IMG/VR virus record: IMGVR_UViG_3300005941_000078
Span: 1 to 20,006 of that record
DNA from: a virus
DNA: 20,006 bases
Reading direction: 5' to 3' (one strand)
A model generated the notes under the pieces. That model saw nothing but the letters and a program-made list of their open reading frames with translations. It ran no database searches and was not told the DNA's origin. Each line of letters opens with the position of its first letter. Position 1 is the stretch's first letter. Of this stretch, positions 6 through 16,303 are shown piece after piece. The position numbers were made by a program, and so were the translations under genes.

Positions 6-410
6 TTACTTATTTCTAGGAATTAGTGTTTGAGGTCCTTCTGTGCCGAATAGAGACTTCTTTACAGGAACACAGTTAGGGACTCTCTTGCCGCCCTTGT
101 CCTTCATTCCTACCTGCTTGTAGCCAGACCAGCATGCCTTCTGGATGTTGTCCCAGTTGTCTTCTTCTTCATTGTCTGACTCGTATCCCTTTGAGATCTC
201 TTCATCTGTAATGTCTTCTGCCTTGTACATATTGTCATGGCCTTTGCACATTTCCATCTCGCATCCGCCGTTGTCCTTGCACTCAGTGCATCCGTTACAG
301 TTGCAACCCTTTGTTGTATCCATCTCATCTTCTGGCTTAGGGTCTATTGACTTTGACAGGCTATCTTGTAGCATGTCCTTGATATCTTCTACAATCTTGT
401 TTAGTTCCAT
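6..410 (-). CDS. Cys-rich phage protein with GYKQVGMK...VPNCVP tail motif
   Basis: 134 aa, function unknown. The N-terminal third is acidic and helical. A cysteine cluster at about residues 36-55 (CNCNGCTEC...CEMEMC) could bind metal. An acidic linker follows, and near residues 93-116 there is a segment ACWSGYKQVGMK followed by GKRVPNCVP. I associate that segment with C-termini of phage head-region and hypothetical proteins, but its function is not known to me. It is the last gene of the tiny-gene array, starting 4 nt after the preceding stop. A TATACT box lies exactly 6 nt before the ATG, so leaderless expression is possible in addition to read-through from upstream. There is no Shine-Dalgarno sequence. 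Confidence 0.8.
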   Translation of the reverse strand: MELNKIVEDIKDMLQDSLSKSIDPKPEDEMDTTKGCNCNGCTECKDNGGCEMEMCKGHDNMYKAEDITDEEISKGYESDNEEEDNWDNIQKACWSGYKQVGMKDKGGKRVPNCVPVKKSLFGTEGPQTLIPRNK

Positions 411-2056: not shown

Positions 2057-2758
2057 TTATTTGTATTCTTTGCGAAACCAATAGAGATTTCGATATGCAT
2101 CAAATAGTTTTGAGGCTATGGTCCTTTGATTCATTAAACTTCTTTTTTTATCAAGAGGTACAATTTCCATTTGATAAGATTCTCTTTTAAATGGTATTAC
2201 TTGTGCTATTGGAGTTCCAGCTTCAATCAAGCCTTCAAAATTTTTATCCTTTAAGTTAAATGGAAGATTAATTTTTTCATAATAAGTATCTGTATCTACA
2301 ATACCTGGCAACACAATAATTTGATTATCTCTATGTAAGGGTGGTAAAATCATGCACGAATACCCTGGTTCTGTTTTAATAAGCCAGGGGTTTTCAATTT
2401 TTAATTGATGTCCTAAATTATTTTCTGGATGCCCTTGAACTTGAAAAAAATCATGTTGTGTTAAAATTTCATCTTTAGCAACCTGACCTTCAGTTCTCCA
2501 ATGAAAATATGGTCCAGTGGGTGTTCTTTCACAGTACATGTCTTGGCCAAGAACAATTACATAGCCAGCGGTCATGGCATCAAAAACTGGCATACATCTT
2601 TTTATTGTTGTATAACTTTCATGCATGTTTGGTTTTTTTTCATCATTTAAATACGATTTTGCATCTTTGTACCACTCGGGTATAAATTTACTTGCAGGGC
2701 CAGGATTATATACTGCATCAGTATTGTCATACCTTGAAAAATATATTTTTTTTGCCAT
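2057..2758 (-). CDS. Paralog family protein of unknown function, copy A (233 aa)
   Basis: 233 aa, no signal peptide or membrane helix. It is clearly homologous to the gene at 15581-16303. Shared blocks are IPEWY/FK (residues about 26-31), CMPVFDAMTAGYVIV (about 55-69), PGYS.M (about 131-136) and FEGLIEAGTPIAQVIPFKRE (about 174-193). Similar proteins occur in T4-like marine phages as hypotheticals; the layout somewhat resembles the DUF6065 group, from memory. It is probably all-beta and may be structural or metabolic; I cannot assign a reaction. Its own promoter (TTGACT-17-TAGAAT) ends 6 nt before the ATG, so it is leaderless. Confidence 0.85.
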   Translation of the reverse strand: MAKKIYFSRYDNTDAVYNPGPASKFIPEWYKDAKSYLNDEKKPNMHESYTTIKRCMPVFDAMTAGYVIVLGQDMYCERTPTGPYFHWRTEGQVAKDEILTQHDFFQVQGHPENNLGHQLKIENPWLIKTEPGYSCMILPPLHRDNQIIVLPGIVDTDTYYEKINLPFNLKDKNFEGLIEAGTPIAQVIPFKRESYQMEIVPLDKKRSLMNQRTIASKLFDAYRNLYWFRKEYK

Positions 2759-2764
2759 ATGTCA

Positions 2765-2793
2765 ATTCTATCTAATTAAATCAATATAGTCAA
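2765..2793 (-). promoter_or_regulatory. Promoter TTGACT-17-TAGAAT, 6 nt before ATG
   Basis: -35 TTGACT (2788-2793), 17-nt spacer, -10 TAGAAT (2765-2770), then TGACAT and the ATG at 2758. Near-consensus with no room for a ribosome site: a clear leaderless arrangement. Confidence 0.8.
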
Positions 2794-2797
2794 TAGG

Positions 2798-2887
2798 CTA
2801 TACTGGTGAATCTATTACTTCATCCATTGCATCATCTATCGTTCTTCCGCCGTGTTCTGTTGAACAACTTCCACAATTCTTACACAT
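2798..2887 (-). CDS. Micro-protein MCxxCxxC (29 aa)
   Basis: 29 aa beginning MCKNCGSCSTEHGG, then an acidic tail. A good ribosome site (AAGGAT) precedes the ATG. It resembles the start of the 48-aa gene at 3134-3280 (MCTECGCN), so a family of Cys-headed micro-proteins may exist here. Very short; coding status is supported by the Shine-Dalgarno sequence, the repeated N-terminal pattern and the position between a hairpin and the next promoter. Confidence 0.5.
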   Translation of the reverse strand: MCKNCGSCSTEHGGRTIDDAMDEVIDSPV

Positions 2888-2903
2888 ATTTATCCTTAAA
2901 CTA

Positions 2904-2929
2904 ATATGGCCCCATTTCTGAGGCCATAT
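2904..2929 (-). terminator. Stem-loop between small genes (8-bp stem)
   Basis: ATATGGCC pairs with GGCCATAT around a 10-nt loop, just after the stop of the gene ending at 2938. There is no U-run after it on the minus strand, so it may be a weak or factor-assisted terminator or an mRNA processing/stability element. Confidence 0.45.
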
Positions 2930-2937
2930 CTATTTAG

Positions 2938-3141
2938 TTATACCTTCTTGGGTCTACCTTTTTTTGAAGGTGGCTGATTAAGATTTGTTTCTCTACGGAT
3001 ACCGTGTTTGTTGGTATCAACCTTAAGTCCTTGTCTTGGGTAACGCTTAGGGGTTTCCCTGCTTGTTACCGCACCAGATGCAGATCCTGCTGCTGGTGGC
3101 GTAACCATTCCAGTGCCATCATCTTTTTTAAAATTACTCAT
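2938..3141 (-). CDS. Basic, disordered small protein (67 aa)
   Basis: 67 aa, rich in Lys/Arg/Gly/Pro (ending PPSKKGRPKKV) with a low-complexity Ala/Gly/Ser section, so probably disordered. The KKGRPKK end resembles an AT-hook-like basic tail. It overlaps the preceding MCTECGCN gene by 8 nt. Function unknown; small basic proteins of this kind may bind nucleic acid. Confidence 0.65.
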   Translation of the reverse strand: MSNFKKDDGTGMVTPPAAGSASGAVTSRETPKRYPRQGLKVDTNKHGIRRETNLNQPPSKKGRPKKV

Positions 3142-3280
3142 TTATGAATTGTCTTGTCTGCTCTGGTGTTGAAGTCATGTCTAATGTTAGACCTGATTCA
3201 CCATCTCTTGACGCATCAACAACAGTGACTGGCTCCATATAAGCCATTCCAAAGATGTTACATCCGCACTCTGTACACAT
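3134..3280 (-). CDS. Micro-protein MCTECGCN (48 aa)
   Basis: 48 aa starting MCTECGCNIFG, a CxxCxC head that can bind a metal, followed by a polar segment ending RQFINE. The same head occurs in short phage proteins I have seen annotated only as hypothetical. The start lies 2 nt after the preceding stop and the end overlaps the following start, so it belongs to the coupled chain. Compare the 29-aa gene at 2798-2887. Confidence 0.68.
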   Translation of the reverse strand: MCTECGCNIFGMAYMEPVTVVDASRDGESGLTLDMTSTPEQTRQFINE

Positions 3281-3282
3281 TA

Positions 3283-3438
3283 TTATTTACCGTTTGTTCC
3301 GACGCCTGAGCTGTCTTGTGTTGACTTATCTGTTGAAGCAAAAGCTCCACCTGGGTTGTCTGAATAGTGTGCATCAATTGTGATTGGTGCTGAAGGCTTT
3401 ACTGTTGCAAAGCCGTCTAAGTTAATTCCATCTGTCAT
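3283..3438 (-). CDS. Small polar protein, probably well expressed (51 aa)
   Basis: 51 aa, Ser/Thr/Gly/Asp-rich (VKPSAPITIDAHYSDNPGG...GVGTNGK), probably extended or disordered. It has a strong ribosome site (AGGAG, 7 nt before ATG) and an upstream TATAAT followed at once by a stem-loop and a leader of about 50 nt. That arrangement is shared with tail-fibre and surface-protein genes here, suggesting high late expression. Function unknown; it could be a minor virion component. Confidence 0.65.
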   Translation of the reverse strand: MTDGINLDGFATVKPSAPITIDAHYSDNPGGAFASTDKSTQDSSGVGTNGK

Positions 3439-3462
3439 TTTATTACTCCTATAGGTTGTATT

Positions 3463-3499
3463 TAGATAGGTCTAGAAATCTATCTATCAGTATATTATA
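3463..3499 (-). promoter_or_regulatory. -10 box plus 5'-terminal stem-loop leader
   Basis: TATAAT (3494-3499) predicts a start near 3487. The transcript then immediately folds TAGATAG...CTATCTA (7-bp stem, 3480-3486 with 3463-3469), before the AGGAG site of the gene at 3438. No clear -35. Confidence 0.5.
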
Positions 3500-3511
3500 G
3501 CATTTAGTTGA

Positions 3512-3634
3512 TTAGGATCGGTATATCTGATGCCAGCAATCGTCACAAATATCTATGATAGCTCCTTCTGGCCTTGAAGTAAGTCTGGTTGCTTTTTTAC
3601 CGCATCCCGCCATTTCACATAATCCGCTAAACAT
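3512..3634 (-). CDS. Small zinc-ribbon protein (40 aa)
   Basis: 40 aa: CEMAGC (residues 6-11) and CDDC (30-33) form a compact zinc-binding pair, with Arg-rich middle and end (HQIYRS). Its ATG overlaps the preceding TAA (TAATG). Similar short C....C...C..C(W) proteins occur in actinophages. Function unknown. Confidence 0.7.
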   Translation of the reverse strand: MFSGLCEMAGCGKKATRLTSRPEGAIIDICDDCWHQIYRS

Positions 3635-3780
3635 TATTTGATGTCGTTTTTAGCAGGGCCTTGTTTATAGGGGCCTAGGTCAGCCTTAATTGAGCCATCT
3701 TTTCTAATTCTAACTATTCTGCCATCTCTAATAATTGTTTTATTAAAAGGGTGTTTTGTTTTGCCTTTTTTATCAGCCAT
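3634..3780 (-). CDS. Small basic protein (48 aa)
   Basis: 48 aa, strongly basic N-terminus (ADKKGKTKH), a beta-hairpin-like centre (TIIRDGRIVRIRKDGSI) and a polar tail. It overlaps the previous gene by 8 nt and ends TAATG onto the next. Not recognised; the RDGRIVRIRKDGS centre suggests a small SH3-like or nucleic-acid-binding fold, but this is a guess. Confidence 0.65.
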   Translation of the reverse strand: MADKKGKTKHPFNKTIIRDGRIVRIRKDGSIKADLGPYKQGPAKNDIK

Positions 3781-3916
3781 TACTTTTTTCTATTATCCTT
3801 ACTATATATCTTATTACTTCAAACGGTCTCCACTCTGGAGGCAGTTCTAAATATCTTATTTCATCAGCTATTTGCTGTCTAATCTTTTCGTCTAAGTAGG
3901 TACTCAGGTCACCCAT
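3773..3916 (-). CDS. Small helical protein (47 aa)
   Basis: 47 aa, amphipathic helices around LPPEWRPFEVIRYIVRII. Its ATG shares bases with the TAA of the larger gene upstream (TAATG) and it overlaps the next by 8 nt. Not recognised. Coding is supported mainly by these overlaps and by a protein-like composition. Confidence 0.65.
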   Translation of the reverse strand: MGDLSTYLDEKIRQQIADEIRYLELPPEWRPFEVIRYIVRIIEKSNG

Positions 3917-4680
3917 TATATTAAATTTTCTTTAATCTTTTTTAAGATTATGTCTCTTGTTCTAGACTTATTAAATATTGAATATGACTCAGTTAAAGGC
4001 AACTTGTACCCAAACATGTGTTTGGCATTAATACATTTTCTTGAATAAGTGTCTAATTCTGGAGTTAATTCAAATCTTTGAAGATTTATTTTCCTATCGG
4101 TTAAAAAATTAACATAAAATATTGGTTCATCTTTTTTAATATGAAGCTCGCCTTTATTTGCAGCAAGCTGTATTTCTACATTTAATGTTCTAAACCATTG
4201 TCCTATATCAAATTGTCCAGCTGTTAAAAATCCATACTTTAAATATTCAACATTTTGAAGGTAAGGGCTGGTTAGCATAACTTCTACTGGCTCTTCTGCA
4301 AACATATGAAGCCTATAAGAAAATTCAATACTTGGGCCAACTGTCATTGTCTGATCTCTTGGCGGATAACATGATATATATGACTCCGTTAATGGAATAA
4401 TTTCAATTTGATTTACATCTGTAGACTGGGCATTATATGAATAGCTTGAATCTATTGGCCAGTTCCACGCATATATATTCTTTGATAGATTTTTAAATGC
4501 TGGACATTTAATAAAAGAGTCTCCCTCTTTTGTTTTGCTCTTAATGTCAAATTGTGTCCAATACTTAAATACATTGACTGGGTCTTCGTACAACATGTTC
4601 CAGTTTCCAATTGCGCCGTCGTCTTCTGCTACTGAGTTTGGTGCCCAGTATACATTTATTGGGCCTTGTTCTTTTTTCAT
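3916..4680 (-). CDS. Divergent third member of the paralog family (254 aa)
   Basis: 254 aa, soluble, no signal peptide. It aligns in layout with the copies at 2057-2758 and 15581-16303: N-terminal beta segments, a centre with PSIEFSYRLHMFAEEPVEVML.. in place of the PGYS.M block, then F..GQWFRTLNVEIQL and DEPIFYVNFLT in place of GTPIAQVIPFKRE. Identity looks low and homology here is inference. The start has only a weak AGAAAG ribosome site. An AT-rich TATAAT lies in the loop of the upstream inverted repeat. Function unknown; probably a beta-rich phage protein. Confidence 0.75.
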   Translation of the reverse strand: MKKEQGPINVYWAPNSVAEDDGAIGNWNMLYEDPVNVFKYWTQFDIKSKTKEGDSFIKCPAFKNLSKNIYAWNWPIDSSYSYNAQSTDVNQIEIIPLTESYISCYPPRDQTMTVGPSIEFSYRLHMFAEEPVEVMLTSPYLQNVEYLKYGFLTAGQFDIGQWFRTLNVEIQLAANKGELHIKKDEPIFYVNFLTDRKINLQRFELTPELDTYSRKCINAKHMFGYKLPLTESYSIFNKSRTRDIILKKIKENLI

Positions 4681-4770: not shown

Positions 4771-5910
4771 TTACTTTAGGTAAGTAACTTTAGCCTTTGG
4801 ATTCTTTGCGTTCCACTTCTTTGCAAGTGCATTGAAAGCATCCTTAATTGACTTAAGTGCAGCAGCATTATCTGCTGTTAACTTAGCGATAGTTGCATCC
4901 TTAGCAAGAACAACTGCATCTGAAGCAGCCTTTGCATCTGCAGCAGCCTTATCTGAGGCAACCTTTGCATCTGCAAGTGCCTTTGCTGAAGCAGCCTTCT
5001 CAGCAGCAATTAGAGCAGTGTGCTCTGCTGTTGCCTTAACAAGTGCAGCGTCTGAAGCAGCCTTTGCAGCAAGTGCTGCATCCTTTGCAGCAGTCTGTGC
5101 AGCAAGTTCTGAAACTAGATCACGAACTGCAATCTCTGCAAATGGTGCAAGTGCACGAGCAGGAAGTCCAACTACATCTGCTGATGTTGCATCAGATGAT
5201 GTTGTAGGTGAGAATGTGATTAGTGATCGTGTTCCAGTTGCTGGAAGTGTTGCCTTAAATGTAGCAACTCCAAAATCTGAAAGTGTAGCACCAGTTGTTA
5301 CTGTTGCTGTATCCATAACTGCTGTTGAAGCAAATACGGTTGCAGTAATTGACTTAGCAGATACCTTGTTGCCAAATGTATCTGTTGCGGTTACTGTAAT
5401 ATCTTGCTTTGTACCAGCGGCACCAGCAGAAGGAGCAGATACTGTAAGAGTATTAATCTTGCCAGCAGTTCCCTGTACGTAGTATGTAAGTGTTGTTCCA
5501 CCATTGTTAATTACGACTGTACCAATTGCTGTCGTTTTAGTATATACGTAAAACGTTGCGGTTGTTCCTGTACCAGTTGCAATTGTCAAAGATGAGGATC
5601 CTGACGTTGCTCCTACTGGTGCAGCTGTTGTGTGTAGTGCAGAAACGATTGTTGCATTTGTTGCTGTTACAAGAACTGATGTTCCTGTGTCAACTGTTGC
5701 AATAAACTTTAATGCGTCAGCAGCATCTACTGTGTTGTCTGCAGGGACTGGTAATGATGCAGGCGTTGCGATTGCAGAGTTTGTAGTGTTTGCTACAGTG
5801 TCAAGCGATACAGCGACTGTCATTACAGCAGCACTTGCAGGTGTTGCTACGATTGTGCCCAAAGTCATGGCTGCAACCATGGCTAGTGCGATTTTCTTAA
5901 ATGAGTTCAT
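4771..5910 (-). CDS. Exported Ig-like/coiled-coil surface protein (379 aa)
   Basis: Signal peptide: MNSFKKIALAMVAAMTLG... with a likely cut after ASA at about residue 27. The mature part is Thr/Ala/Val-rich beta-sandwich (residues ~30-250), including an Ig-like block TVTATDTFGNKVSA at ~172-185. A long Ala-rich coiled coil follows (~265-345, repeated AADAKAASDA), and then a basic tail FNALAKKWNAKNPKAKVTYLK. That architecture recalls surface-layer-type proteins of small freshwater actinobacteria and their phages (from memory). Good ribosome site AAGGAG, 11 nt from ATG, behind a 5' stem-loop leader. It is likely secreted and cell-surface bound or virion-associated; whether it helps the phage or alters the host surface is unknown. 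Confidence 0.85.
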   Translation of the reverse strand: MNSFKKIALAMVAAMTLGTIVATPASAAVMTVAVSLDTVANTTNSAIATPASLPVPADNTVDAADALKFIATVDTGTSVLVTATNATIVSALHTTAAPVGATSGSSSLTIATGTGTTATFYVYTKTTAIGTVVINNGGTTLTYYVQGTAGKINTLTVSAPSAGAAGTKQDITVTATDTFGNKVSAKSITATVFASTAVMDTATVTTGATLSDFGVATFKATLPATGTRSLITFSPTTSSDATSADVVGLPARALAPFAEIAVRDLVSELAAQTAAKDAALAAKAASDAALVKATAEHTALIAAEKAASAKALADAKVASDKAAADAKAASDAVVLAKDATIAKLTADNAAALKSIKDAFNALAKKWNAKNPKAKVTYLK

Positions 5911-6454: not shown

Positions 6455-6667
6455 CTACTTATCCTTTAATGCTTCCGCTGCTGCATTGAATCTATTCATA
6501 AACTCCTGAATAACCCAAAATGTAGTCTGTGTAGCATTTTCTCTTAATGCCTTAGACATCTCTTCTGTCTTTTGATCTTCAGTTGCAGCGTTATACCATT
6601 TTTGATATAGTTCGTTACCAAGATCAACAATGATGCCTTCTAATACTGTTACTTGCTGTTCAGCCAT
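6455..6667 (-). CDS. Small helical protein (70 aa)
   Basis: 70 aa, mostly amphipathic helix (LGNELYQKWYNAATEDQK...NATQTTFWVIQEFMNRFN). Not recognised by name; similar helical proteins next to trx occur in phages from memory. Ribosome site GGGAG, 5 nt from ATG. The start overlaps the subtilase stop by 8 nt. No Cys pair or membrane helix. Confidence 0.75.
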   Translation of the reverse strand: MAEQQVTVLEGIIVDLGNELYQKWYNAATEDQKTEEMSKALRENATQTTFWVIQEFMNRFNAAAEALKDK

Positions 6668-7586
6668 TTAAAGCTCCCTGTAAATTAATTAGCTTACCGC
6701 CTTTAATTTTTGAATTGCTAATAGAAGTAGATGTTCTAGAGATTAGATCATACATCTGACTATATGTTAATCCTGGCTTTGCTGAAGAAATTGCAAGCCA
6801 TGTCGCTGCTGCTGCTTGAATTGAAGCAGATGTTCCAGCAACTGGAGCCTTAACATTACCTGGACCATATGTAATTGTTGTTCCCAACGCAAAGAAATCA
6901 ATAAGCTTTGCATCATAATTTGTGTAAACCGCAACAGCCTTAGATGGCATTGATGCACCTATAGCAATTGATTCTGGCAAGCATGCTGGCCAACGAAGCT
7001 TTGTGTAATTAAAATCATTACCCGCTGGCAAAAATACTGGAATGTTACTTGCTACTAGTGTTTGAATCTTTGATTGAGTAATTGGTGTCTTTGGACAATA
7101 ATCTGCTCCAGCAACCCAGTTGCTTGATGCCTGCGCCATTGATACCGCTTTAATATTATATTTATCTTTATTGTCAATTACCCATTGTAGAGCATTGTAA
7201 ACAGCAGCCTCTGTTGCTACTTGCCTAACTCCGTCTGGATTGTTTCCAATAATTCTGACAAAAACAATCTTCATGTTTGGATTATTAATAAGAGCAAGAT
7301 ATGTCATTTGTGTTCCATGATCAAATCCTCTTTGACTAATAAGATTTGAAGGCATTGATGCGGCACCTGGCCCCTCCATATAGGTCTGTCCATTAGGACA
7401 AGGGCCACGCTCTAGCAAACAAACTTCTTGAACAATCTTATCTTTAAATAATGGTAATGATGTGTCAATCGCTGTATCCAGGATTGCTAGTGTGGGTTCA
7501 ATTGTTGTGTTCTTTAATGCAGCATGAGATGCTGTAGGAACAACGAGTAGTAGGGCAACTAGTGCCGTAGTTATTTTTTTAGTCAT
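6660..7586 (-). CDS. Secreted subtilisin-like serine protease (S8)
   Basis: 308 aa. Signal peptide MTKKITTALVALLLVVPTASHA. The S8 triad is visible: Asp in AILDTAID (D37 or D41), His90 in FDHGTQM, Ser253 in VAGTSAS; Asn190 in FLPAGND supplies the oxyanion hole. There is no long propeptide: the Asp block follows the signal peptide within 15-20 residues. Four Cys in the mature part (56, 63, 164, 202) may form disulfides outside the cell. First gene of an operon with a 70-aa protein, thioredoxin and a 66-aa protein. The promoter TTGACA-16-TAGAAT ends 6 nt before the ATG, so the mRNA is leaderless. It could cut host surface protein or process virion proteins; the substrate is unknown. Confidence 0.92.
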   Translation of the reverse strand: MTKKITTALVALLLVVPTASHAALKNTTIEPTLAILDTAIDTSLPLFKDKIVQEVCLLERGPCPNGQTYMEGPGAASMPSNLISQRGFDHGTQMTYLALINNPNMKIVFVRIIGNNPDGVRQVATEAAVYNALQWVIDNKDKYNIKAVSMAQASSNWVAGADYCPKTPITQSKIQTLVASNIPVFLPAGNDFNYTKLRWPACLPESIAIGASMPSKAVAVYTNYDAKLIDFFALGTTITYGPGNVKAPVAGTSASIQAAAATWLAISSAKPGLTYSQMYDLISRTSTSISNSKIKGGKLINLQGALNG

Positions 7587-8165: not shown

Positions 8166-8194
8166 ATTATACCTTAAATCTGGATGTATGTATA
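8166..8194 (-). promoter_or_regulatory. Promoter TATACA-17-TATAAT, 6 nt before ATG
   Basis: -10 TATAAT (8166-8171), 17-nt spacer, -35 TATACA (8189-8194, 4 of 6 match) inside the end of the preceding gene; then GGTAAT and the ATG at 8159. Confidence 0.6.
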
Positions 8195-8731
8195 GGGTGC
8201 TGCTACGCTCATATTAAACTCAGTTGCCGCCTCTAATGCTGCTTTTAATCTAAGCTTTGGGTTTTGTTGCTTTTTTGTTGCGTGTAGTGCTCCAAGAGCT
8301 ACCTGTCCGCCGCTTCCTTCCGCCATATAGTTAACTATGTTTTCTCCAACATGAAAGTCTTCGTCTACAGTAAAAAGTCTTCCGCATACTCCAACAATAA
8401 ATATTCCACCAGTGTCTTCTTCTGACGCAGACCCCACGCTTCCGTATCCGTGATCTTTAAATGCTTGCTTAACAGAATCAACAAACTTAGTTCGCATGAA
8501 CTTGTCTAAGCCTGAATTGGTTTTAGTTGGTGTATATTTTGGAGGGGTCCACATGTACTGAAGGATTTGTCCCATACGAAATGAGTCAGTAAAAGCAATT
8601 CCATACTGACCATTCTTAAAAACTTTAGGTTCTTTTCTTGATAAGATCCAGCCCGTTTTATCATCTGAGGCGGCATGGTCAGACCCCATATATACAACAC
8701 CGTTCTGGGCAATAGCTACTATACATGTCAT
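8174..8731 (-). CDS. HslV / proteasome-beta-like Ntn hydrolase
   Basis: 185 aa, close to HslV size. It starts MTCIVAIAQNGVVYMGSDHAAS, matching the proteasome beta / HslV pattern T(T)IVAV..NGVVI.aDsraT. After Met removal, Thr would be residue 1 and the Asp in GSD residue 17, the conserved D17. A Lys-Val pair (EPKVF) at mature residue 35 matches the catalytic Lys33 region with a 2-residue shift. AEGSGGQVALGAL near residues 138-150 matches the conserved GSGG..AlGA motif. It has no propeptide. No HslU-like ATPase is visible in the window, so it may act alone or borrow a host ATPase. TATACT lies 6 nt before the ATG (leaderless), and a Met-Thr start on a leaderless mRNA directly exposes the nucleophile. 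Confidence 0.82.
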   Translation of the reverse strand: MTCIVAIAQNGVVYMGSDHAASDDKTGWILSRKEPKVFKNGQYGIAFTDSFRMGQILQYMWTPPKYTPTKTNSGLDKFMRTKFVDSVKQAFKDHGYGSVGSASEEDTGGIFIVGVCGRLFTVDEDFHVGENIVNYMAEGSGGQVALGALHATKKQQNPKLRLKAALEAATEFNMSVAAPYTYIQI

Positions 8732-8737
8732 ACTACC

Positions 8738-8743
8738 AGTATA
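8738..8743 (-). promoter_or_regulatory. -10 box (TATACT) for leaderless gene at 8731
   Basis: TATACT followed by exactly 6 nt (GGTAGT) and the ATG; no ribosome site and no obvious -35. Confidence 0.55.
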
Positions 8744-9521: not shown

Positions 9522-9825
9522 TTGGTACCCCTTCAAGTTCGCATCTTACTCCGTAAGATTCGATTAGTTTTTTAACTTTTCCAACGTAATCTATTACTTG
9601 TTCTTTTTTAATTCCTTCGTACTGAATAAAATTATCTTCGTATAGTCTTACAGCTAAAAACTCTGGGTACTGAACTACATCTAACTGCAGATCAATTACT
9701 GGCTTCTTTAATTCTCTTATCTTTGTTGACATTTCTTTTGTATAAAATACTGCTTTATTTGGCTCACCATTCCAAAGATTTATACCGTGTTTGAAGTGGT
9801 CCTTATCTTTATTTATGAATTCCAT
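9496..9825 (-). CDS. Hypothetical protein (109 aa)
   Basis: 109 aa, alpha/beta, no Cys pair or membrane helix. It contains NLWNGEPNKAVFYTKEM, then LDVVQYPEFLAVRLYEDNF and a helix QVIDYVGKVKKLIESYGV. Ribosome site AAGGGC, 5 nt from ATG. It starts 17 nt inside the WhiB gene, so the two are probably coupled. Family not recognised. Confidence 0.78.
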   Translation of the reverse strand: MEFINKDKDHFKHGINLWNGEPNKAVFYTKEMSTKIRELKKPVIDLQLDVVQYPEFLAVRLYEDNFIQYEGIKKEQVIDYVGKVKKLIESYGVRCELEGVPSARILRSN

Positions 9826-10126
9826 TTTTAGCCCTTATCTTTTTCCAAACATCTTCTGTCTTGTGAATATTTCTAGGCTTATCTACTTCTCCAGTGTTCA
9901 AGTATATTCCGCCCCACACACCCTGCTCATTACTATTTACACCAAACTCATAACACATTTTTGAAACTGGACAACTTAAGCAGGCCTGATCAATACTCTT
10001 TGCTATATTTACATCAGACTCATACTTATCATAAAATAAATTAGTATCAAGTCCTCTGCATGCTGCAAGGTGGTACCAGTCTAAATCATCTTCGTCTACG
10101 CCTAGCTCATTTAAAATATTTGACAT
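9809..10126 (-). CDS. WhiB-family Fe-S transcription regulator
   Basis: 105 aa from ATG 10126 (MSNILNELGVDEDD...). It has the four WhiB cysteines: one in LAACRG (about residue 23), then CLSCPVSKMC, the C-x2-C-x5-C cluster, followed by the signature GVWGGIY and a basic C-terminus (KIRAKNG). WhiB proteins carry a 4Fe-4S cluster and regulate transcription with the principal sigma factor; they are restricted to Actinobacteria and their phages. A longer reading from TTG 10180 exists but would lie within the preceding gene. It overlaps that gene by 20 nt and has a weak ribosome site, so coupling is likely. The phage WhiB may re-programme host transcription or block host WhiB2, as known for mycobacteriophage TM4. 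Confidence 0.93.
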   Translation of the reverse strand: MSNILNELGVDEDDLDWYHLAACRGLDTNLFYDKYESDVNIAKSIDQACLSCPVSKMCYEFGVNSNEQGVWGGIYLNTGEVDKPRNIHKTEDVWKKIRAKNGIHK

Positions 10127-10340
10127 AATGCTTAGGCAACTTCCAAATTCCGTTTTCGTTAACAGGTACTCTCTCTGCAATACCCCATGAATCTTTCCTA
10201 AACATTCCCTTTACATTTGTAAAGCCGCCTGGATCTTTTTTCCATATAAGCAAATCATAATTTTCCCAGTATGATTCTTGCTTGTTATGCTTTGATCTTT
10301 CCATAAAGACTTCTACACCTTTGAGTGTAAGGTTAAGCAT
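10107..10340 (-). CDS. Small hypothetical protein ending WKLPKHYVKYFK (77 aa)
   Basis: 77 aa, basic and aromatic (SYWENYDLLIWKKDPGG.. MFRKDSWGIAERVPV.. NGIWKLPKHYVKYFK). The RKDSWGIAERV...G.W.LPK.Y.KYF pattern is one I recall from phage hypotheticals near whiB. Ribosome site AGGA close to ATG 10340; a second Met (residue 13) is an alternative. It is first after tRNA-Asn and so likely co-transcribed with it from the strong promoter at 10478-10507. Confidence 0.78.
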   Translation of the reverse strand: MLNLTLKGVEVFMERSKHNKQESYWENYDLLIWKKDPGGFTNVKGMFRKDSWGIAERVPVNENGIWKLPKHYVKYFK

Positions 10341-11312: not shown

Positions 11313-11540
11313 TTATTTATCCTTTCTTAATGGGATTGTAATTAGCCAGACTATTGTTACTGCCATTACAGCAATTCCAACAATATCTCTTGCTGATCCC
11401 GTTAAAGTTAACCATGCGATAAAGAAGCCGAGGAGGGTGAATGCCTGTGCAATTAATTCCATTCCTGCATCTTTAAACCATTTAGTTAATCCCTTTAGCA
11501 TTTTGCCTACCAGGTTTATGGCTTTATTGATTATTTTCAT
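11313..11540 (-). CDS. Small membrane protein with amphipathic N-terminus (75 aa)
   Basis: 75 aa: a basic amphipathic helix (KIINKAINLVGKMLKGLTKWFKDAG) followed by two transmembrane helices (about 29-47 and 52-70), ending LRKDK. Such a basic amphipathic head can lie on the membrane. The ATG overlaps the stop of the large PA14 gene (ATGA). Together with the next two genes it makes a three-gene membrane cassette. Confidence 0.72.
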   Translation of the reverse strand: MKIINKAINLVGKMLKGLTKWFKDAGMELIAQAFTLLGFFIAWLTLTGSARDIVGIAVMAVTIVWLITIPLRKDK

Positions 11541-13702
11541 TTGTTCCTCCTTATCATTGCCCCTGCAATTTGTGATGCAATGACCACTGGGACAATTACT
11601 TCCTGCGCTTTTTCTCTCTGATCATCCGTCATGTCCATACCTAATTCAGAGAAATTAGATAGGAGTTCTACTGGGTCCACTTCAAATACCGCTCCAAGTG
11701 GGTCTGCTAAAAATGCTTCTGTTTGTACTTCTGTTGTTGCATCTGCTAATGTAAATGGCATTGGGGCTTCTCCTGCATCCCCTGCTCTTTCTGCAAACTC
11801 AACAAAGGCTGCTGCGATGGCAGGATCTGACTTCATTACCTCTGCCACTTTTGCTACTTCTGCTGAAGAAATACCAAGATTAGAAGCAATCTCCTTTTTT
11901 GCTTCTTGTGTCAAAGACTTTAGGGTTTGGCTAACTGCTGCAGTCTGCTCTGTTGAAAGTTTAACTAATTTGTTATCTCTGCTTGTAAGGTTTGCAATAA
12001 CACCAGATAGATCTTCCACATTTCCTGTACCCTTTTGTGGAATAAGTGCTGCTAATACTTCATTTTTGATTACTGGATCAACATTTTCTGATGGCTTAAA
12101 GTCTGGTCTTGGCAATGGCTTAGGTTCTGGTGAAGGCTCTACAGGAGGCTCTGGAGTGGGTTCTGGCTTTGGTTCAGGGCTTGGGGCAGGTGTTGGCTTG
12201 GGCTCTTCTGGTTTAGGCTTATCTGTCGGTTCTGGCTTAGGACCTGGAGGTGTTGGTTTTGGATCTGGGTTTTCACTTGGTGGAGTTGGTTTAGGCTCTG
12301 GCTTATCTGTTGGCGGAGTTGGCTTTGGTTCTGGCTTATCTGTTGGTGGATCAGATGGCTTAGGCTTTTCTGGTTCAACAGTTGGCTTAGGTTCTGGAGA
12401 AGGTTCTGGTTTAGGTTGATTGGCTGCAGCATTGGCTGCTGCTTGAGCCATAGCAGCATTAAGTTCTCTTTGAGACTGCTCATCATAGTAACGCCATGCG
12501 TTATCAATTGCACTGTTGACATTATTAATTGCTTGATTGTATGCGCTAATAGCATTGTTTTTATTTTGCAATGCCGTCACAACATTTAAACTTGCATTAG
12601 TAGCCTCAGTTGTTTTATTAGTTAAGGTTTGATTGTAACCATTTAATGTTGAAACTGCTTGATTATAAACATTTAATTTATCATTGTATACATTCTGTGC
12701 TGAGTTTTTTGCAGAAAGGGCGTTGTTGTAGGCATTGGTTTGTTCTTGTGTTGCTACAGATCCATGGGACAGTGTATTTAAACTACAACTAAAATTTTGT
12801 CCCCATACTCTTGGAGTTCCAGCATAGTCACAGCCTACACCAGTCCAACCCATGCTGCCATATGAATCATATGGTATTCCCCATCCAAGATGATAAGATC
12901 CTACTCCTCCACCGTTGTACCACCATATTTCTACATCAAAAACTTTATCAGTTGTTACATCATATATTGGAGAATATGCACTCCAAGTTGCTCCTTGCTC
13001 TACCCAGTTGTCAATGGCCAATGCTCCGTCAATATACATTCTAAATCCATCATCTGTATACCCTGCAAATTTTGTTGATGTAAACCATGAAGGTACTGTT
13101 ATTTGTCCAGTAAATTTAACTATAAAGTTTTCATATCTATTACCACACACTGGACGCTGCATAGAGTTTTCACCATATTCCCCAAATATTCCACTACATA
13201 AGAATTGGTCTGTGGCTGCAAGGCCATTAACTCTAATTAAACTATAAACATCATATCTTAAACCAGGTCCTGATGAATTGTTATTATTTAATGCTTGTTG
13301 AGCAGTTGATAAATTAATATTGGCTACTTCAAGAGCATCATAGGCATTATTTTTATTAGTTAGGGCAGTGGCTACTACTACTGTTTGTCCATCTACGGCT
13401 GTTTGGGCTAATGCTTTTTGTTCCCCTGCCGTGACTTTTGAGGCAAGAGAGTTGTCATATAGCGTAGAGGTTTGGGTCTGGGTTTCTTTTGCAGATACTG
13501 CAAGGTCATACCTGTCTTCTGCCTCTTCAATTAGGGATATAAATTCATCCTTGTAGCCAAGGTCATCAATACTATTATTTAGCTCTTCAATTTCTTGAGC
13601 TGCCAAGCTTAGCGGGTCATCAGAATAGGCGGGGGACATAAAAAGCCATCCAAATGCAAGCATTATGGACGCTGTTATTCTAAATAATCTATTCCTAATC
13701 AA
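11537..13702 (-). CDS. Exported PA14-domain protein with proline-rich stalk (721 aa)
   Basis: Layout: signal-like N-terminus (residues 1-27, ending SPAYS), coiled coil (~30-140), PA14/GLEYA-like beta domain (~148-280: FAGYTDDGFRMYIDG, VEIWWYNGGG, HLGWG), second coiled coil (~318-430), a proline-rich repeat of PEPKPTPP units (~435-560), and a C-terminal helical domain with a hydrophobic end (VIVPVVIASQIAGAMIRRNK). PA14 domains bind carbohydrate, so this is a likely receptor- or wall-binding protein. The signal peptide and C-terminal hydrophobic segment are odd for a tail fibre and suggest display on the infected cell. The start is TTG 13702 with strong GGGAG, 6 nt upstream, behind a 9-bp 5' hairpin. 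Confidence 0.87.
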   Translation of the reverse strand: MIRNRLFRITASIMLAFGWLFMSPAYSDDPLSLAAQEIEELNNSIDDLGYKDEFISLIEEAEDRYDLAVSAKETQTQTSTLYDNSLASKVTAGEQKALAQTAVDGQTVVVATALTNKNNAYDALEVANINLSTAQQALNNNNSSGPGLRYDVYSLIRVNGLAATDQFLCSGIFGEYGENSMQRPVCGNRYENFIVKFTGQITVPSWFTSTKFAGYTDDGFRMYIDGALAIDNWVEQGATWSAYSPIYDVTTDKVFDVEIWWYNGGGVGSYHLGWGIPYDSYGSMGWTGVGCDYAGTPRVWGQNFSCSLNTLSHGSVATQEQTNAYNNALSAKNSAQNVYNDKLNVYNQAVSTLNGYNQTLTNKTTEATNASLNVVTALQNKNNAISAYNQAINNVNSAIDNAWRYYDEQSQRELNAAMAQAAANAAANQPKPEPSPEPKPTVEPEKPKPSDPPTDKPEPKPTPPTDKPEPKPTPPSENPDPKPTPPGPKPEPTDKPKPEEPKPTPAPSPEPKPEPTPEPPVEPSPEPKPLPRPDFKPSENVDPVIKNEVLAALIPQKGTGNVEDLSGVIANLTSRDNKLVKLSTEQTAAVSQTLKSLTQEAKKEIASNLGISSAEVAKVAEVMKSDPAIAAAFVEFAERAGDAGEAPMPFTLADATTEVQTEAFLADPLGAVFEVDPVELLSNFSELGMDMTDDQREKAQEVIVPVVIASQIAGAMIRRNK
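12110..12420 (-). repeat. Proline-rich coding repeat (PEPKPTPP units)
   Basis: Short imperfect repeats encode alternating PEPKP, TPPTDKP and PSPEP units. It forms a stiff extended spacer between the coiled coil and the C-terminal domain. Repeat number may vary between related phages. Confidence 0.75.
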
Positions 13703-15580: not shown

Positions 15581-16303
15581 TTATTCGTAAGACTTTTTCT
15601 GCCAGAACTGGCGCATATAAGACCTATTTAAAACTGATCTTACTTTAAAGTTATCCTGAAGTTCACGTTTTCTACTAAATGGGGGAAGTGATTCATGTAC
15701 CCAGTCTTCTCTTTTAAATGGAAATATTTGTGCTATTGGGGTTCCCTTTTCAATAATTCCCTCAAAATCATCACGAAGCCACATATTAATAGCGAGCCTG
15801 GCATGAACTTGATCTGAGTCTATTATACCTGTCATAGATAGAAATGGTAGATCATATCTATTAAATGGATGAGTTACCATTATGCTGTATCCCGCTGGTG
15901 TTTCAATTCTTGGATAAGCAATCATGCGCCATACGTATTCATTATATCCGTGTGGTACTGGCATCCCCTTTGATCTGTGAAGAGGTTGATCTAAATCAAA
16001 TAAAACATCTGCCCCCGCAGGTGTAGCACCCCAATAGGCCATAGTTCCTTGAGTTTCGTTTTTTGCAATCTTAATATCTTGTGGCGTAACAACCATATAC
16101 CCAGCAGTAAGGGAATCTAAAAATGGCATACATTTCTTTACCGTTGCTGCATCTCTAGGGTCTCCCCATTTCATTGCAGGATCTTCAGAAGGAATCTTCT
16201 TAAACCATTCAGGTATAGCTAATTTAGCTGGCATTGGAGGTTGTTCTATTTGATAGATATCTTCCGCAGCAGCATAAAACTTAATAGTTTTTTTATTTAG
16301 CAT
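15581..16303 (-). CDS. Paralog family protein of unknown function, copy B (240 aa)
   Basis: 240 aa, homologous to 2057-2758: IPEWFKKIP (~residues 30-38), KKCMPFLDSLTAGYMVVTPQD (~56-76), PAGYSIMVTHPFNRYDLPF (~136-154), GIIDSD, and FEGIIEKGTPIAQIFPFKREDW (~183-204). No signal or membrane helix. It sits between thermonuclease and Hsp20, 13 kb from copy A. Leaderless: TTGTAA-17-TATACT ends 6 nt before the ATG. The conserved GTPIAQ.FPFKR near the end and CMPF.D..TAGY centre probably define the fold or site. Function unknown. Confidence 0.85.
   Translation of the reverse strand: MLNKKTIKFYAAAEDIYQIEQPPMPAKLAIPEWFKKIPSEDPAMKWGDPRDAATVKKCMPFLDSLTAGYMVVTPQDIKIAKNETQGTMAYWGATPAGADVLFDLDQPLHRSKGMPVPHGYNEYVWRMIAYPRIETPAGYSIMVTHPFNRYDLPFLSMTGIIDSDQVHARLAINMWLRDDFEGIIEKGTPIAQIFPFKREDWVHESLPPFSRKRELQDNFKVRSVLNRSYMRQFWQKKSYE

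Follow-up and report, generated by a model that had tools for sequence, protein, structure and literature searches.

A phage gene whose product resembles a proteasome subunit raises the question of what kind of peptidase it encodes, whether it works with an ATPase partner and what it does in the infected cell. The gene lies in a stretch of 20,006 nucleotides, positions 1 to 20,006 of IMG/VR virus record IMGVR_UViG_3300005941_000078, referred to here as the window. A preliminary description had put the gene at 8174-8731; there is an ORF of 185 amino acids at that position, but it is read from the minus strand, with its ATG at 8731 and its stop codon at 8174-8176, and a plus-strand reading of 8174..8731 is ruled out by stops throughout. 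The protein begins MTCIVAIAQNGVVYMGSD and hence, just as had been proposed, Thr and Asp occupy mature positions 1 and 17; the GSGGQVALGAL motif reported earlier is also present, as residues 139-149. Relatives are encoded in 178 GenBank phage records and in at least 324 IMG/VR stretches, the latter including at least 80 close copies, and the median pairwise dN/dS for 81 close copies is about 0.04. Purifying selection on the gene is thus strong and, taken with the match to phrog_1040 and the number of relatives, places the ORF far beyond chance. It is an intact, strongly conserved peptidase gene, and its family is already known from both bacteria and phages.

Catalytic residues and translation start

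The conservation of the putative active site was followed in two alignments, one containing 60 homologs (15 close phage and 45 bacterial sequences) and the other 14 more diverse rows. Thr2, the predicted nucleophile (mature Thr1; codon 8726..8728, minus strand), Asp18 (mature Asp17; 8678..8680, minus strand) and Lys36 (mature residue 35; 8624..8626, minus strand) are invariant in all 60 homologs, so that the conservation suggested earlier as a check on the assignment does hold. Among the diverse rows the Asp and the Lys are again invariant (14/14), and a single sequence has Ser in place of the N-terminal Thr, the other 13 having Thr. A profile alignment to BPH and PsmB, in which Lys36 falls on the Lys of both, equates the three residues with proteasome Thr1, Asp17 and Lys33, and residue 2 of the structural model superposes on chain residue 1 of BPH and HslV. 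Gly139 and Gly141 are invariant as well. The oxyanion-hole Gly47 provides a backbone contact and is present in most Ntn members, its sequence not being required for the fold. Its place in the window protein is taken in the alignment by Asp49 (codon 8585..8587, minus strand), next to a Ser50 that is invariant in the 60 rows, and across those rows the position is occupied by Ser in 35, Asp in 23, Gly in one and Thr in one. As aligned, then, the oxyanion position is mostly non-Gly, which sets the family apart from HslV, BPH and proteasome beta. Catalysis may therefore differ with Asp or Ser in place of Gly but, as the oxyanion-hole contact is made by a backbone NH, function may equally persist.

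The ATG is preceded on the minus strand, at a distance of 6 nt, by a predicted -10 element, TATACT (8738..8743), that is conserved in relatives. A -10 hexamer occurs at exactly -12 to -7 from the ATG in 80/80 close relatives (TATACT in 65, TACAAT in 15) and a Shine-Dalgarno sequence upstream of the ATG in 0/80, whereas among 90 other relatives the hexamer was found at that spacing in none and an SD-like motif in 53. Furthermore, in a relative of 116 kb the spacing of TATA[CAT]T from candidate starts downstream of it has a peak at 6 nt (10 occurrences, compared with about 1 at other spacings). The invariable -10 box unaccompanied by a Shine-Dalgarno sequence, together with this peak, makes it likely that the peptidase mRNA is translated without a leader. 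Leaderless genes are a familiar feature of bacteria, Actinobacteria among them (PMC3160421). Several other genes, both in the 116-kb relative and in the window (6-410 and 1666-1830), carry a -10 hexamer some 6-8 nt before their ATG, and for this reason leaderless expression appears to be usual throughout the phage. The earlier proposal that a leaderless Met-Thr start would expose the nucleophile by simple Met removal is supported as to the start by the conserved -10 box 6 nt away, but Met removal would expose Thr1 with or without a leader.

Fold and family membership

An AlphaFold2 model made from the 60-row alignment (pLDDT 91.2, pTM 0.88) has a predicted alpha-beta-beta-alpha Ntn fold in register with solved members. 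In comparisons made with Foldseek and VIA-align 2 the top solved match was BPH 5ovt (Z 20.7, rmsd 2.1, 167 residues, in register at Thr1), followed by HslV (Z about 19), the comparator proposed at the outset, and then by 20S beta subunits (Z 17-18), and in a viral structure library the model matched phage homologs including one from Gordonia phage Daredevil. BPH was also first when a family profile was searched against PDB sequences (E 1.6e-5); the single-sequence PDB match was to a proteasome beta (E 0.028). Searching with proteasome-family HMMs, another check suggested beforehand, gave a divided result, in that the single-sequence match to Pfam Proteasome was sub-threshold (E 0.047; 13.8 bits, the cut-off being 22.4) but phrog_1040, named "peptidase HslV family", matched over the whole protein (E 1.9e-19). 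Since the single-sequence Pfam match is sub-threshold, it is profiles, residues and fold that connect the protein with the proteasome. Helices are modelled at residues 51-60 and 75-94, and between the second of these and the next strand there is an acidic loop of about 16 residues (95-110, GYGSVGSASEEDTGGI) that contains SEEDTGG.

The protein probably belongs to group I of the proteasome-like superfamily, being of the type published as AAH and having a fold close to that of BPH. As the AAH label is based on taxonomy and similarity, it is to be read as a putative assignment. A genome scan with a five-row alignment found cellular relatives that are 35-47% identical over the full length in Frankia, Streptomyces, Actinomadura, Plantactinospora, Azospirillum, Rhizobium, Mesorhizobium, Bradyrhizobium and a few Bacillota; no relative was found by a genome scan with the single window protein. 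This range is that given for AAH by Fuchs et al. 2021 (PMC8665760), whose survey identified AAH and PPH as the main proteasome-homolog families in phages. Beyond the cellular range, the points of likeness to AAH are the absence of a propeptide, the lack of an AAA+ partner and the occurrence in phages; the point of difference is that the window phage appears to be Actinobacteria-specific, and the survey found no such phage with AAH (PMC8665760). The match to phrog_1040 is shared by cellular AAH-type proteins, but that group mixes AAH-like with short PPH-like proteins and its name suggests HslV, which the window protein is not.

Membership of PPH, a family of about 140 residues lacking helix 2 (PMC8665760), is ruled out by the length of 185 residues, the presence of both helices and a BLASTP comparison with a short PPH-like protein of an Aeromonas phage, which gave no meaningful match. 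In Aeromonas phages such as 4L372D an AAH-like gene has directly after it the gene for a short PPH-like proteasome homolog that is extended at its C-terminus, and it is possible that this pair (2501-3954 of the compared stretch) constitutes a two-subunit system. HslV is likewise ruled out, no HslV NCBIfam model matching at E 1 and Pfam Proteasome remaining below its cut-off. The protein shares with HslV (ClpQ) and proteasome beta the Ntn fold and Thr1, Asp17 and Lys33, but it is only about 20% identical to them, has a long loop rather than a short linker and no propeptide, and comes from a group in which neither HslU nor another proteolytic AAA+ was found in 16 relatives of the window phage. 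The description of the product as an HslV/proteasome-beta-like Ntn hydrolase therefore stands for fold and triad, but the protein is not HslV and its best matches are BPH and AAH-type proteins. With BPH (5ovs, 5ovt, 5ovu), the best PDB match by both fold and profile, it has in common the long acidic loop and the lack of a known partner unfoldase, no AAA+ over cut-off having been found in relatives of the window phage; the two differ in that identity is about 20%, that BPH has Gly at the oxyanion position where the window protein has Asp, and that BPH is bacterial. Another comparison is offered by the HslV-like protein of DSL-LC01 (OQ999401), also a lake actinophage, whose gene likewise adjoins a WhiB gene, but the two proteins are only 26% identical and that of DSL-LC01 has a C-terminal basic tail and an oxyanion Gly. 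HslV-like genes without HslU have been noted in a paper on jumbo phages (PMC7823757), and in Escherichia phage 121Q an HslV-like gene lies near genes for a ClpP-like protease and a Sir2-like protein (1065-2597 of the compared stretch).

When HslV and PsmB were included as outgroups in a tree from which four very long rows were left out, the window protein and its close phage relatives formed a separate long branch apart from the outgroup. Grouping of this clade with the sampled cellular AAH-type proteins was not rejected (p-AU 0.29), nor was grouping with homologs of T5/Vibrio-type phages (support 72/92), and a position inside the actinobacterial AAH was neither supported nor clearly rejected (p-AU 0.095). 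An origin in the 20S proteasome of an actinobacterial host, from its beta subunit, is ruled out by low similarity and by the separation of the clade from the HslV/PsmB outgroup.

Probable function and its alternatives

On balance the protein is most likely a catalytically competent, ATP-independent, self-compartmentalising Thr peptidase that acts in the infected cell. Translation would start at Met-Thr on a leaderless mRNA, methionine aminopeptidase would take off the Met to expose Thr1 and, if the conserved residues imply the usual chemistry, Thr1 would attack peptide bonds with the help of Asp17 and the Lys33 equivalent. If BPH is a guide, identical subunits may assemble into a closed double ring whose active sites face inward, gated by the elongated acidic loop in place of an AAA+ cap, and unfolded or specific host or phage proteins might be degraded or trimmed in it during takeover. 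HslV for its part is a dodecameric double ring, and the ring of BPH is tetradecameric. The enzyme may, as was also suggested beforehand, alter proteolysis in the infected cell. Counted in favour of this explanation are the triad (60/60), the Ntn fold, the matches to BPH, the dN/dS of 0.04, the loop and the leaderless start (80/80), as well as the lack of AAA+ hits over cut-off in 16 records, a separate head protease in 16/16 and the metabolic-gene context in unrelated phages. Counted against it are the inactivity of BPH on the substrates tried (PMC5777263), the oxyanion Asp or Ser and the fact that a host ATPase could be the partner. BPH has an elongated acidic pore loop, which may share in substrate recognition in a ring that has no partner unfoldase, while HslV has only a short linker; BPH was inactive on the model substrates tried, yet epoxomicin bound its Thr1 (PMC5777263). 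For the AAH-type families no function or partner was known at the time of the 2021 survey (PMC8665760), and the literature searches made yielded neither data on the activity, assembly or substrates of any AAH nor an experimental study of a phage AAH.

The question of a partner was approached through 16 related phage records (completeness not certified), in which an AAA_2 (ClpX/HslU-type) domain was found in 0/16 and an AAA domain over the family cut-off also in 0/16. An unfoldase encoded by the phage is for this reason unlikely, the earlier observation that no ATPase partner is seen extends to the relatives and, no proteolytic AAA+ unfoldase having been found in them, an HslUV machine is argued against. 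The same absence can be read in favour of the idea that an AAA+ unfoldase of the host (Mpa/ARC, ClpX or ClpC) uses the peptidase as its proteolytic chamber, so that the phage redirects the regulated proteolysis of its host, and the kindred HslV and proteasome beta do use AAA+ partners. Nevertheless, the survey found no AAA+ partner co-occurring with the AAH-type families, HslU is unlikely to be present in the host since HslV is not marked for Actinobacteria in its Table 1 (PMC8665760), and the long BPH-like loop is suited to ATP independence, so this alternative is considered doubtful. The ATP-independent peptidase might be extended to a phage proteasome-like chamber that reprograms proteolysis in freshwater Actinobacteria, its Asp-for-Gly oxyanion site giving restricted specificity or ligase-like chemistry and, for example, a host defence or regulatory protein being removed early in infection, but at this level of detail the reading is speculative and rather unlikely.

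It was also suggested earlier that the enzyme might process virion proteins. Processing proteases are needed by many phages, and terminase and endolysin genes are also present in the window, but a separate head-maturation protease is found in 16/16 related phages and in unrelated phages the homolog lies outside the head module, near genes for RNR, thymidylate synthase, DHFR, dCMP deaminase or NAD metabolism. The presence of the separate protease argues against a capsid-maturation role and leads us to infer that the peptidase is not the capsid maturation protease; virion processing is accordingly disfavoured as its main role, and site-specific processing of virion proteins, or of others made by the phage, is improbable. 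A similarly low probability is attached to a role in specific transpeptidation or ligation, or in reactions on other amides, like that of the monomeric homolog connectase: such functions have been taken up by proteasome homologs (PMC8665760) and the oxyanion Gly is replaced, but the model lacks the helical insertion between early strands that is the connectase signature. Least probable is a decoy or inhibitor that has lost catalysis and is built into the 20S proteasome, or some other barrel, of the host for, although some actinobacterial AAH carriers also have a 20S proteasome and Gly47 is not kept, similarity to PsmB is low and Thr1, Asp17 and the Lys33 equivalent, for which an inactive decoy has no need, are invariant over deep divergence.

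The phage and its relatives

In TerL the window phage shares 64% identity with Streptomyces phages Francob, Gilson and their kin (Stanwilliamsviridae/Loccivirinae), and its WhiB (9809-10180) is 50% identical to theirs; WhiB is present in 16/16 long relatives tested and in Gilson is followed by thioredoxin, the same order as in the window. No member of the peptidase family was found in the whole Gilson genome, and so the gene has been either gained in the window lineage or lost in the Streptomyces lineage. The window appears to derive from a phage of freshwater Actinobacteria, belonging to a group of relatives of about 110 kb that carry the AAH-like gene, the freshwater origin being suggested by the lake-phage context as well as by the abundance of environmental copies in IMG/VR. 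The window and these relatives supply an Actinobacteria-specific phage group with AAH, of which the 2021 survey could find no example (PMC8665760), and so fill that gap, as does DSL-LC01 more distantly and perhaps four Microbacterium phages. If the enzyme is active, such phages would bring a compartmentalised Thr peptidase of their own that has no ATPase. With at least 80 copies under selection, a defined start and a small single-domain protein of 185 residues, this AAH is easy to test.

Several other genes of these phages may be recorded. Downstream of the Ntn hydrolase gene is a gene for a subtilase (6660-7586, minus strand; Pfam Peptidase_S8, E 7.6e-13) whose start resembles a signal peptide and whose LDTAID, FDHGTQ and GTSAS motifs are intact; it is kept in 77/78 close relatives and gave no match by tblastn against the phage collection. 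The window also encodes two paralogous phrog_7084 (DUF6065-like) proteins (2057-2758 and, on the minus strand, 15581-16303) and two secreted-looking proteins (4771-5910 and, on the minus strand, 11537-13702), one of which is Ala-rich with a signal peptide, the other having 721 residues, a PA14 domain and a Pro-rich stretch. Among the products of the 116-kb relative are a fatty acid desaturase and some seven 2OG-Fe(II) oxygenases.
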